This document shows positions 59,189 to 64,000 of a stretch of DNA of 64,000 nucleotides, in pieces; within the stretch, counting starts at the first letter, position 1; each line of letters begins with the position of its first letter. This DNA comes from Cylindrospermum stagnale PCC 7417 (lineage in GTDB: Bacteria > Cyanobacteriota > Cyanobacteriia > Cyanobacteriales > Nostocaceae), in assembly GCF_000317535.1 (NCBI RefSeq), contig NC_019757.1, positions 6,227,501-6,291,500 on the forward strand. Direction: 5' to 3'. Under the pieces are notes generated by a model. The model was not told the origin of the DNA, searched no databases, and saw only the letters and a list, made by a program, of their open reading frames with translations. Position numbers and translations under genes: made by a program.

Positions 59189-60452
59189 GAGTACAGACAG
59201 GTGGTTGCGAAAAATGAGCTATACCCTTGTTGCTCTTTATTCAACTTCAGCTAGTTAATAGGCTGATGAGCAAAGAGCTACTGATTCTAGTTTAAGGATA
59301 ACCATTAAAATTTTAGTTGTAGAAGCGCCGCCAGCGACATTTGTCTCCAACTCTACGCCCAACAGCAAATAAAGTAATCAAGGCTATGGATTTAATGGGA
59401 TCTGTTTGTCCTGCTAGGGAAGAGGCGTTGCATCCTCCAGAGAGACTTGCTTGCGTTCATTCCCTGCATAGGGAAAATAAGCAAATAAAATACACGTTAA
59501 GTTATGGATACATCTTGATGTCAACTTGAGTCAAGTCCTGGCTAAAAAATCCCTCAAGCGCCAGCAAAGAGGAAATTTTTTGGTTATATATTCGTGTTAA
59601 AGCGGATGAAGATCATCTAGTGGCGGCAATTAAGCACCAGGCAAATGTGGTAAATTTATTCTTCCCCTAGACAGACGTGCAGAATAAGTTGAGAGTTTGT
59701 TGCCTGATTGTCATAAACAGTGAGGAAAATCTACACTGCTGTCTTGAAAAGTTCACGCACCGGGAAACCCGGACGCGCGAGAGTTTTCGCTTTTTGTCTG
59801 CTCTCAATCAAGAAAATCTGGGATTTAACTCATTGATCAAAACTGAAGAGTCGAAATTAGATGAATTTTTATAAAATTTGTGCGCCAATACTCTCTAGGC
59901 AATAGAGCATGAGAAAAATCCACATCGCTTTTTCCCCAACCTAGTCCAGGAATTTAGATAAAAGTTTACCAAAGACTTTAATTCAAATTTAAACAAATAT
60001 TTTGCTATTATTAGTCCATGCTAGTATTTAATATAAAATTACGAAGAAACAAAACCAGTATCAATAGCCGTATAAGCGCGGCTGCTACCGCTTTGTTTCT
60101 TCGTAATGTAGAGATCAGAAAATTCACGTCTCTACAGGCAGGACAAAAGGGTGATATGTCCGTAAGTCCAGATTCAAATACTATGCTGTCCTAAGCTTGA
60201 GAGGATGAGTAGGGACAACCCGACAACTCAAAGGCAATAAAGGCAAGCACTGAAAGTGAAAAACCTGCTATTACTGGGCTGCTACGACTTATTTGTAGTA
60301 GAACCAACCCAATTTGTAAAGGTGGCTTAAAGTTACACCGCTACAGTAGCGCCAAAAGAGAAAAAAAATAATTTCCGATGGCGAATGATGGTTAAAAGTG
60401 CCGTAAAATCACCGAAATTAATGTTTGTGGCGACCATGACATCTAATCTGTT
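59189..60452. other. Long intergenic region upstream of the cyAbrB gene
   Basis: About 1.26 kb with no convincing gene. A stretch at about 59580-59670 keeps an open frame (reading FWLYIRVKADEDHLVAAIKH) that could be a decayed gene end. A long perfect inverted repeat is at 60039-60106. The last 300 bases probably hold the regulator's promoter and leader. Confidence 0.4.
60039..60106. repeat. Long hairpin with 15-base perfect stem
   Basis: TTACGAAGAAACAAA (60039-60053) and TTTGTTTCTTCGTAA (60092-60106) are exact reverse complements, with an inner AGCCG/CGGCT pair that can stack. It has no gene inside and could be a small RNA, a repeat element or a terminator of an unseen transcript. Confidence 0.6.
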
Positions 60453-61975: not shown

Positions 61976-62833
61976 ATGAACAGTAATGGTCAAATCAAGA
62001 TTCTGTTTCTCGCAGCCGACCCCAGTGATGTTGCGCGATTACGCTTGGGGCAAGAGTTGCGCGATATTCGGGAGCGGCTACAACTAGCTAAAGAGCGAGA
62101 TAGATTTGTGATCGAGTCCCGTGAGTCTGTACGTCCGGGAGATATCAGCCAAGCCATATTTGATGTTGAGCCGCAGATTGTGCATTTCTCTGGACATGGA
62201 ACAAGTGCCGGGGAGCTTTGCTTTGAAGACTTACTAGGAAATTACCAACCGGTACAACCCGAAGCCCTAGGGGCACTATTTGAACTGGTAGCTGATCAAA
62301 TTAACGGTGTAGTTTTGAATGCTTGCTATTCAGAAGCCCAAGCAAAAGCCATTGCAGAACATATTCCCTTTGTCATTGGGATGAATCAAGCAATTAAAGA
62401 TCAAGCGGCGATCGCATTTGCAGTTGGTTTTTACAAAGCCTTGGGTGCTGGAAAGACCATAGATAAAGCTTTCCAGTTCGGTTGCGTAGAAATCAGACTG
62501 CAAGGCATTCCAGCCCATTTGACTCCAGTTCTGTACATCAAACCAGAGGTACAGCAGATAGCTGCCAATGCTCCTGGTGAACCAATAATTTCTCCGCCAA
62601 ATTCCCCTACAACTAATCTGAGTACTGGACAACGACGGCGAATTTCACAGGAACTCGAAGGACTCCAGCAACAATATGAGATGTTAACAGACAAGCTGAA
62701 TTACCTGCAACGGGAATTAGTCACACAAGCAGGTGCTGCTATTAAGTTTCAACTCCAAAAAGAAATTGAAGAAGTTGAAGCCGAAAGAAAGAAAGTAACT
62801 CAAAAAATCGAGCAGTTAGAAAACAGCCTGTAA
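61976..62833 (+). CDS. CHAT-domain caspase-like protease with C-terminal adaptor domain
   Basis: Protein of 285 residues. Residues 1-190 form a CHAT-type caspase-fold peptidase with catalytic His 74 in PQIVHFSGHGTSAGE and Cys 117 in GVVLNACYSEAQ. A Pro/Asn/Ser-rich linker (about 195-215) leads to a helical C-terminal domain (about 217-285) that recurs at the N-terminus of the next gene's product, with AGAAIKFQLQKEIEEVEAER as its core. Such shared effector-associated domains recruit effectors to sensors in bacterial conflict systems. CHAT proteases are executioners in several immune systems. The substrate is unknown. Confidence 0.85.
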   Translation: MNSNGQIKILFLAADPSDVARLRLGQELRDIRERLQLAKERDRFVIESRESVRPGDISQAIFDVEPQIVHFSGHGTSAGELCFEDLLGNYQPVQPEALGALFELVADQINGVVLNACYSEAQAKAIAEHIPFVIGMNQAIKDQAAIAFAVGFYKALGAGKTIDKAFQFGCVEIRLQGIPAHLTPVLYIKPEVQQIAANAPGEPIISPPNSPTTNLSTGQRRRISQELEGLQQQYEMLTDKLNYLQRELVTQAGAAIKFQLQKEIEEVEAERKKVTQKIEQLENSL

Positions 62834-62927
62834 TAAAAATTACAATTTTCGTTGACTTTGCCAGTGTTATATTTAGTTATATGGTTAGGTTTATTCGTGC
62901 CTAATTACTTAACAAAGAAACTCACGT

Positions 62928-63935
62928 ATGTTTTCAGTTCGGCACTTTCAGCAAAAACTCAAAGAATCACAGCAAGAGTACAAAGTTCTCAGTGAGAAAA
63001 TATCTCACTTAAAGGAAAAATATCACCGAGAGGCTGGCGCTGCAGTACAGTTTCAGCTAAAGAAAGAGATAGAAGAAGCTGAATCAGAACGTGAGCTTAT
63101 TGTCAAGCAAATTGATAAATATGAGAATGCAGATAAGATTGAACGTCTCAACAATGCCCTGTTACGCCTAGACTACGAGAAACAAACACTTTTATTTAAA
63201 GAATTTATTGAACAAGAACAGCGAATTGGAGTTTTTCTAGTTCATGGAGAATCAGAAGAACATGGGCAAATCTGGCTATTGAACCGTCTGTTAGGGCGAG
63301 TGCCGGAGATGGAGACGATCACACTAGAATTTCACTTGTCTCGCAAATCACGGCGACATGATATTAGTGCTTTATGGCGAGAATTGGGTGATAAAGTTGG
63401 GGCAAGATTAAACTCCCGTGCAAGTATAATCACTGAGGAAGAAATTGAACGCGTTCTTCAAGGAGTTATTCAAAAGTTAAGAACCGAACACGTAATATTG
63501 GTTCTTCATCAGGTAGATCATGTAACTGAAGCTTATCTTAACGAGCTTTTACATAACTTTTGGTTACCATTAACAAGCTTAGTACGTAAGTCTATTGACC
63601 AAAAGAGCGATCGCTTACTGCTGATGTTTTTAATAGACTGCGAAGGTTGTGTCAGTACCTGGAATATCACCTTTGCACAGGAGTTTGACTCAGCTTGGGA
63701 ACCGCATATTCCCATAAGTTTGCCCATGATTAAGTGTTTATCTAGTGATATCTTGACTAATTGGTTCAGATATGAAGTTGAATCACTACCAACCAGGGTA
63801 ACTAAAGAAATTAGCTCTAACGTTCAGGAAATTATGCTGATGAGTGAAGGCGTTCCTGAACTTGTGTTTGGGCATATTTATGATTTGTGTAATTGTGATG
63901 GGCAAGAATGGAGGCATAGGTGGCAAAAGCTATAA
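62928..63935 (+). CDS. Adaptor domain plus degenerate STAND-like NTPase (iSTAND) protein
   Basis: Protein of 335 residues. Residues 1-70 form a helical adaptor nearly the same as that of the upstream CHAT protein (AGAAVQFQLKKEIEEAESER). From about 95 there is a STAND-like P-loop NTPase fold in which the Walker A region reads VFLVHGESEEHGQIWLL, with no GK[TS], so it is probably inactive in nucleotide hydrolysis. The Walker B-like strand is HVILVLHQVDHV. It follows the CHAT gene by 94 bases and overlaps the next gene by 16. Proposed role: a scaffold or sensor that recruits the CHAT protease through the shared domain. Confidence 0.75.
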   Translation: MFSVRHFQQKLKESQQEYKVLSEKISHLKEKYHREAGAAVQFQLKKEIEEAESERELIVKQIDKYENADKIERLNNALLRLDYEKQTLLFKEFIEQEQRIGVFLVHGESEEHGQIWLLNRLLGRVPEMETITLEFHLSRKSRRHDISALWRELGDKVGARLNSRASIITEEEIERVLQGVIQKLRTEHVILVLHQVDHVTEAYLNELLHNFWLPLTSLVRKSIDQKSDRLLLMFLIDCEGCVSTWNITFAQEFDSAWEPHIPISLPMIKCLSSDILTNWFRYEVESLPTRVTKEISSNVQEIMLMSEGVPELVFGHIYDLCNCDGQEWRHRWQKL

Positions 63936-64000
63936 ACGGAAAGCGGCTTAAATACACAGGCAAGATACAACCCAAGCCTGGAGAACAAGATCCGCAGACA
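63920..64000 (+). CDS. Partial gene at window edge, possibly a MoxR-type AAA ATPase
   Basis: A GTG with GGAGG 6 bases upstream opens a frame (VAKAINGKRLKYTGKIQPKP, then GEQDPQT) that runs off the window and overlaps the preceding gene by 16 bases, showing tight coupling. The N-terminus resembles the leader of MoxR-like AAA ATPases found beside STAND-like adaptors in conflict systems, but only 27 codons are visible, so the family call is a guess. Confidence 0.5.
   Translation, partial: MAKAINGKRLKYTGKIQPKPGEQDPQT

Follow-up and report, generated by a model that had tools for sequence, protein, structure and literature searches.

The distal end of a 64,000-nucleotide stretch of the Cylindrospermum stagnale PCC 7417 chromosome (NC_019757.1, positions 6,227,501 to 6,291,500; the window) carries two genes, for a CHAT protein and for an iSTAND protein, which probably make up the front, signalling part of a ternary conflict system of the iSTAND MoxR-vWA class. 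The MoxR-vWA switch is destroyed in this genome and the remaining genes are disconnected, so that this member of the family is most likely in decay or has been partly rewired. The features of the window are given below; positions past its end refer to a longer stretch, L003, in which L003:1 is window position 60001.

61976..62833, plus strand: CHAT protease gene with a C-terminal EAD9-like adaptor (285 amino acids; PF12770, 32.7 bits)
62612..62830, plus strand: adaptor copy 1, a predicted EAD9-like helical hairpin at the CHAT C-terminus (EAD9 15.4 bits, under the cut-off of 25)
62928..63935, plus strand: EAD9-iSTAND protein gene (335 amino acids; iSTAND core at residues 78-236; PF19995, 95.2 bits)
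62928..63143, plus strand: adaptor copy 2, a predicted EAD9-like helical hairpin that opens the iSTAND protein (27 identities with copy 1 over 64 residues)
63920..64000, plus strand: truncated start of a MoxR-type AAA+ gene, its open frame running past the window to L003:4213

The C-terminus of the CHAT protein and the N-terminus of the iSTAND protein align without gaps (Smith-Waterman score 153). In 5000 composition-preserving shuffles the mean score was 34 and the maximum 71. An adaptor common to an effector protease and a STAND scaffold had been proposed in the preliminary description of this DNA, with about 25 of 59 residues identical; that count was about right, the homology is borne out by the shuffles, none of which reached the observed score, and the likeness survives comparison with homologues. 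Both copies are predicted to be two-helix hairpins, with helices at CHAT residues 217-250 and 254-284 and at iSTAND residues 4-34 and 38-95, the latter helix running into the core. The segment is helix-rich and charged, it gives weak sub-threshold Pfam matches to unrelated coiled-coil families, and weak EAD9 matches are common in control genomes, all of which would suit a chance resemblance of generic coiled coils. This explanation is very improbable and was rejected, being largely refuted by the shuffling; moreover, chance would hardly align two hairpins without gaps, and other genera have like adaptors in both of these gene positions, three of which exceed the EAD9 cut-off.

We class the adaptor as of the EAD9 kind on the strength of matches between the CHAT tail and the adaptors of loci L043, L044 and L046 (E = 9e-10 to 3e-9), positional homologues which pass the PF19962 (EAD9) cut-off with 30.9, 28.6 and 26.3 bits, respectively (3 of the 10 proteins scanned). 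EAD9 matches at E up to 1 were found in 10 of 14 control genomes, none over the cut-off, so that for the window copies a Pfam EAD9 score is no proof by itself. Matches of the window copies to our adaptor profile A1 arise by construction, the profile having been built with them. Like EAD9, the window copies are small helical adaptors carried by a signalling enzyme and by a component of the core, but they score under the Pfam cut-off; judged by sequence they are a divergent EAD9-like subgroup, with the second EAD copy on the gene of the adjacent core component.

The CHAT match exceeds the Pfam cut-off of 24, and the protein contains the motifs HFSGHG (H74) and NAC (C117), which are invariant in all six aligned CHAT-EAD9 heads and which presumably supply the His/Cys dyad. 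Its structure model, with a mean predicted local distance difference test (pLDDT) score of 76, has the SAVED-CHAT protease filament (PDB 8tl0; SAVED-CHAT by its entry title) as nearest structure (Foldseek E = 2.3e-11), followed by caspases and some other structures with E from 4.5e-4. The His/Cys motifs align to 8tl0 (E = 2.7e-12), and PADLOC also gave CHAT-type matches. The two proteins thus share a CHAT fold and His/Cys motifs, although the window protein has a short EAD9-like adaptor instead of SAVED, and it is predicted to be a protease. Rather than the effector, it is more plausibly a signalling protease that the core recruits; the variable effector would lie further downstream, on a vWA-L-like protein.

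The second protein passes the PF19995 cut-off of 24, and no second iSTAND match was found in a genome-wide search of the source genome. Its expected Walker A place reads HGESEEHGQIWLL and contains no GxxxxGK[ST], the pattern that we take as the Walker A motif in judging the P-loop; by this measure the P-loop of the STAND module is degenerate. Positions HG and GQI are invariant in all four aligned sequences. Matches of the iSTAND structure model to ZAR1, TnsC, ORC, Apaf-1 and CED-4 (E = 7e-4 to 0.035) come from a low-confidence model, and this likeness is only suggestive and was given little weight. The third open frame starts at 63920 inside the iSTAND gene, with an overlap of 16 bp, and matches AAA (PF00004) with 26.3 bits (cut-off 21.2).

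The preliminary description had also named the first protein a CHAT protease and the second a P-loop-degenerate STAND protein, with a third gene overlapping the second and an operon going on past the window. These points stood: profile searches matched CHAT, iSTAND, the AAA+ start and a CoxE-type vWA remnant, and the DNA following the window contains the MoxR start, an IS607-type element, the vWA remnant, a PD-(D/E)xK gene and a DUF1257 protein, as follows.

L003:3920-4198, plus strand: MoxR remnant, residues 1-93 of 318, 88% identical to residues 1-93 of intact MoxR
L003:4198-6100: IS607-type element region, just past the window end, occupying the site of the lost MoxR end and vWA start
L003:4288-4935: MerR-resolvase recombinase (PF00376 and PF00239 over cut-off)
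L003:4295-6067 as called: TnpB frame, its true start probably later (PF07282 over cut-off)
L003:6089-6490: vWA remnant, residues 240-373 of 376 (PF05762, 34.5 bits; CoxE-type)
L003:6520-7140: PD-(D/E)xK gene between the vWA remnant and the vWA-L-like gene (PADLOC 173.9 bits)
L003:7180-8472: vWA-L-like/DUF1257 effector protein (430 amino acids; DUF1257 at residues 346-427)

The element was classed by the rule, assumed here, that an IS607-type element combines a serine recombinase bearing a MerR-type helix-turn-helix domain with TnpB. It stands where MoxR residues 94-318 and vWA residues 1-239 belong, and relative to Nostoc KVJ20 the operon has lost about 1.4 kb at this point. Three other matches to the element in the source genome are partial. 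Neither an intact adjacent MoxR gene nor an intact CoxE-like vWA gene is present at this locus, and nothing else resembling this MoxR was found in the source genome in a search at E up to 1e-5; MoxR is full length in L047, L155, L157 and L158. With MoxR and vWA truncated around the transposon, ternary function is probably lost in the source genome, and the operon here is probably not working as a ternary system.

With the iSTAND protein as query, 27 of 388 genomes of the class showed matches: the source genome (G000), G116 and G177 (adaptor matches only), G022 and G184 (surroundings outside the count) and 22 others, whose loci were read. A MoxR match follows iSTAND in all 22 loci (truncated in L052 and L062), and vWA and the vWA-L-like gene are each present in 19; L061 also has a vWA start at a contig end. 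An EAD9-like adaptor is found on iSTAND in seven of these loci (L041, L042, L043, L044, L046, L047 and L056), and the iSTAND protein of L058 has a weak match to the adaptor profile (4.8e-7) beside EAD1. The complete CHAT-EAD9 operon is present in L047 (genome G107, same family), Dendronalium (L155), Nostoc KVJ20 (L157) and Hassallia (L158), the effector region of the last being split over two frames. With the CHAT protein as query, a scan of named genomes yielded 14 loci, of which three (L155, L157 and L158) are complete CHAT-EAD9 operons, two have CHAT-EAD9 without iSTAND in the stretch examined (L154, Cylindrospermum FACHB-282, taken as the same genome as G116, and L156, Fischerella) and nine have CHAT without this adaptor.

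The heads linked to EAD9 vary (CHAT, TIR, caspase C14), and in some other loci TIR, trypsin or C14 is fused directly to iSTAND. The fronts of ten other iSTAND proteins were TIR and trypsin (three each), C14, EAD1 and helix-turn-helix (one each), with nothing called in the tenth. The C-terminal parts of ten effector proteins also varied: FHA, WD40, pentapeptide and a KAP-type NTPase once each, FGE-sulfatase twice, and four with no family called. Heads and effectors thus differ between genomes, and the operon is not a fixed housekeeping unit without effectors. One effector, L155:12984-16052, has two CHAT stretches and AAA_35, in an operon which also has a CHAT signalling head. A PD-(D/E)xK gene between the vWA and vWA-L-like genes occurs at L158:13269-13925 too, which places this arrangement in two genera.

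Previous comparative work has described systems of this kind. In the main text of Kaur et al. 2020 (PMC7159879), iSTAND ternary systems carry an EAD on the iSTAND N-terminus and a second copy on an adjacent gene, adjacent copies are closer in similarity, and EAD9 is among the EADs that recruit signalling components. The window shares with these systems the N-terminal EAD of iSTAND, the adjacent signalling peptidase with the same EAD, MoxR and vWA next, and a putative variable effector downstream. It differs in that MoxR and vWA are truncated in the source genome, that the head is CHAT, a word with no occurrence in that main text, which has caspase-like peptidases instead, and that the effector has DUF1257, likewise with no occurrence there. 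According to the relevant part of Kaur et al. 2021 (PMC8195603), a minority of iSTAND systems have vWA-L plus effectors on a separate gene. A 2026 paper (PMC12839542) lists MoxR-vWA iSTANDs, in the section concerned, as proposed sensors among rapidly evolving inactive STANDs, together with BrxB and other BREX iSTANDs; this likeness is one of description only, and no BREX gene was named among the scanned L003 frames. A literature search for iSTAND together with MoxR gave these three papers, whose consulted portions are comparative genomics. PMC10907252 contains no mention of iSTAND and calls the proposed antigen-sensor role in its conflict systems still to be tested, and PMC10910872 reports MoxR-vWA-VMAP genes near CRISPR loci. 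The logic of an immune or programmed-death operon suggested in the preliminary description fits iSTAND ternary conflict systems, but only in part this copy, with its truncated MoxR and vWA. Its estimate that the combination is little studied stands insofar as no experiment was found, and fails insofar as the principle is known from Kaur et al. 2020 and Pfam names both iSTAND and EAD9.

In the working mode proposed here, the EAD9-iSTAND protein of the intact relatives would act as sensor and scaffold and the MoxR-vWA pair as an ATP-driven switch. On activation, the EAD9 hairpin of iSTAND would pair homotypically with that of CHAT, concentrating and activating the protease, which in turn may release or activate, by proteolysis, the effector on the downstream vWA-L-like protein; the end point would be cell shutdown or death. 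The immune function is thus a proposed one, whereas the breakage, the intact relatives, the homology of the adaptors and the gene content are observed. With the switch destroyed in the source genome, CHAT-EAD9, EAD9-iSTAND and the effector gene are open but disconnected. The Apaf-1/caspase-9 apoptosome likewise combines a STAND scaffold with a caspase-fold protease, each bearing a helical adaptor. This is a works-like analogy only: the window adaptor is a predicted two-helix hairpin, not an established death fold, and the STAND module is without a P-loop.

A comparison of adaptor copies also supports the main reading. Head and iSTAND adaptors of the same locus were 42.2% identical over 11 loci, against 33.9% for permuted pairs (0 of 20000 permutations). 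The same was seen with nine less redundant loci (39.7 against 33.1; 0.00015) and with seven (38.2 against 31.1; 0.0007), and another version of the test gave 41.2 against 33.1 for eight loci (0.0005) and 37.1 against 29.7 for six (0.004).

Several observations weigh against the reading of the window genes as an adaptor-coupled iSTAND front end. The pairing signal is weak in the CHAT subset (five loci; 41.9 against 38.7; 0.025) and is confounded by shared ancestry, common descent explaining part of it. The own iSTAND copy is the best-scoring one for only 3 of 11 heads (L003, L157 and L043), and an EAD9 linked to NB-ARC outscores the own iSTAND for four of 11, namely L041, L042, L056 and, by one point, L158; the heads of L041 and L042 sit downstream of the operon core, not beside iSTAND, and that of L056 is a bare adaptor. 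The Pfam EAD9 score of the CHAT copy is sub-threshold, the Pfam scan of the iSTAND copy listed no EAD9 match, and when the whole genome was searched with EAD9 the window copies scored 19.1 and 14.0 bits, both again under the cut-off. The iSTAND structure model, from four aligned sequences, has a mean pLDDT of only 56. PADLOC gave no match for the iSTAND protein, though CHAT matched, and no experiment on an iSTAND ternary system was found in the literature, supplements and subscription papers being outside the scope.

The source genome was compared with the two other genomes of its genus, G116 and G388. iSTAND is present only in the source genome. G116 keeps a CHAT-EAD9 gene, but of the DNA from iSTAND to the effector gene it retains short matches alone, which fall at the end of vWA and in the part preceding the effector start (L059:8190-8620 marks this remnant); in G388 both iSTAND and a CHAT-EAD9 match of full length are lacking. 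Between G000 and G116 the catalytic part of CHAT differs by 9 non-synonymous and 14 synonymous changes, a ratio of non-synonymous to synonymous rates (dN/dS) of 0.18 (p = 9e-5), and the adaptor by 10 and 3, a dN/dS of 0.93 that is not different from neutral. The whole CHAT gene has a dN/dS of 0.37, compared with 0.053, 0.012 and 0.13 for three neighbouring genes. Three operon pairs of the intact TIR-EAD9 type gave values of 0.076-0.086 for the head adaptor and 0.12-0.23 for the iSTAND adaptor. Uncorrected p values were 0.041 for adaptor against catalytic part, 0.025 for linker plus adaptor against catalytic part, and 0.004 for the window adaptor against the L043/L044 head adaptor, an intact TIR-EAD9 pair; these contrasts involve small counts, several comparisons and pairs of unequal divergence (dS about 0.1 against 0.7-1.4). 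The retained CHAT domain looks constrained and its adaptor relaxed, on few changes.

These results bear on whether the locus is simply dead, its open frames being those not yet lost. Such passive decay is possible, with a chance somewhat short of even. It accounts for the broken core genes MoxR and vWA, for the absence of iSTAND and the few short matches in G116, for the lack of both iSTAND and a full-length CHAT-EAD9 match in G388, for the apparently relaxed adaptor and for the lower constraint on the whole CHAT gene than on its three neighbours. It does not account for purifying selection on the CHAT catalytic part, nor for the iSTAND and effector frames that are still open.

A different fate for CHAT-EAD9 would be service to another partner. 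The source genome and G116 each encode a protein with an EAD9-type start, by the adaptor profile, followed by NB-ARC and TPR (L127:3829-6237, 802 amino acids, and L129:6983-9505, 840 amino acids, respectively), and the L127 protein has a P-loop-like GITGIGKTALAERL. The MoxR-vWA core being lost, CHAT-EAD9 might now serve this Apaf-1-like hub as an apoptosome-like adaptor/protease pair. We regard this as unlikely. The presence of the hub in both genomes, together with an open CHAT-EAD9 gene with a constrained catalytic part in G116, which is without iSTAND, is consistent with it, as is G276, a genome outside the 27 with an iSTAND-protein match, which has an EAD9-NB-ARC-TPR protein (L140) and an EAD9 protein with a TIR-like head, as judged by eye (L138). 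On the other hand, the window CHAT adaptor scores 142 with its own iSTAND copy and 114 with the NB-ARC copy, that of G116 scores 137 with an iSTAND copy and 107 with NB-ARC, and the near-neutral adaptor does not show the constraint of a part in use. A further large protein (L130:3446-7978, 1510 amino acids) has weak NACHT/NB-ARC matches, HEAT repeats, EAD8, a metallophosphoesterase domain and an EAD9-type stretch.

Truncation of MoxR is not confined to the window. The last matching MoxR codon is 93 in the window, 64 in L052 (L052:2572-2781) and 94 in L062 (L062:7696-7983); 3 of 23 iSTAND loci, the window included, are thus affected, and the iSTAND frames of L052 and L062 are open. Both of the latter have transposase genes close to the break. 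About 0.6 kb past the MoxR break, L052 has a frame with HTH_38 over the cut-off and rve at 25.5 bits, under the cut-off, and L062 has an ISAzo13-type DDE frame (184.6 bits) about 0.2 kb past its break. Transposons may well have caused these MoxR cuts.

The effector gene carries a further peculiarity. The first approximately 250 residues of its product are conserved and common to the downstream gene of 19 of the 22 loci; the name vWA-L was given by position and homology between loci, not from a curated model. The C-terminal third is 80-82% identical to DUF1257 proteins of 13 genomes. The whole protein as query matches 329 of the 388 genomes at E up to 1e-10, mostly through the DUF1257 part among the matches listed, and likewise among the matches listed only the source genome has the vWA-L-like part and DUF1257 in one frame. 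Sequence comparison thus points to a captured copy of the near-universal cyanobacterial and plastid DUF1257/Ycf35. Of the 102 residues that do not vary among the 13 copies, the captured domain has 79, and 9 of the 23 missing ones fall in a C-terminal cut; as the 13 copies are similar and come from the best rows, the invariance of ordinary copies is overstated. No link of DUF1257/Ycf35 to conflict systems appeared in the titles and abstract openings of the literature matches listed. A phage or plasmid origin found nothing specific in its favour: a phage search with the DUF1257 effector protein only gave no match, and among plasmid records one matches iSTAND and 69 match CHAT, with 2 of the 69 spanning 80% or more of the CHAT protein.

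These observations could be joined in one scenario, in which transposons repeatedly cut MoxR between codons 64 and 94 with the sensor frame left open, the freed CHAT-EAD9 is retained under selection while its adaptor is released from its partner, and the DUF1257 (Ycf35) copy was captured as an effector or as a bait mimicking a cellular target. As a whole this scenario is tentative and rather doubtful. The kind of system is already described; the points new here are the recurrent MoxR truncation, the constrained CHAT with a relaxed adaptor and the captured DUF1257/Ycf35.

The complete operons in three named genera, the broken-motor copy in C. stagnale and the protease-only remnant in a relative of the same genus form a natural before/after series, so that a few constructs would suffice to test the adaptor principle. 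Recurrent MoxR loss, if true, would amount to self-silencing of iSTAND systems by loss of the motor, and raises the question of whether these predicted immune systems are costly enough to be disarmed repeatedly.

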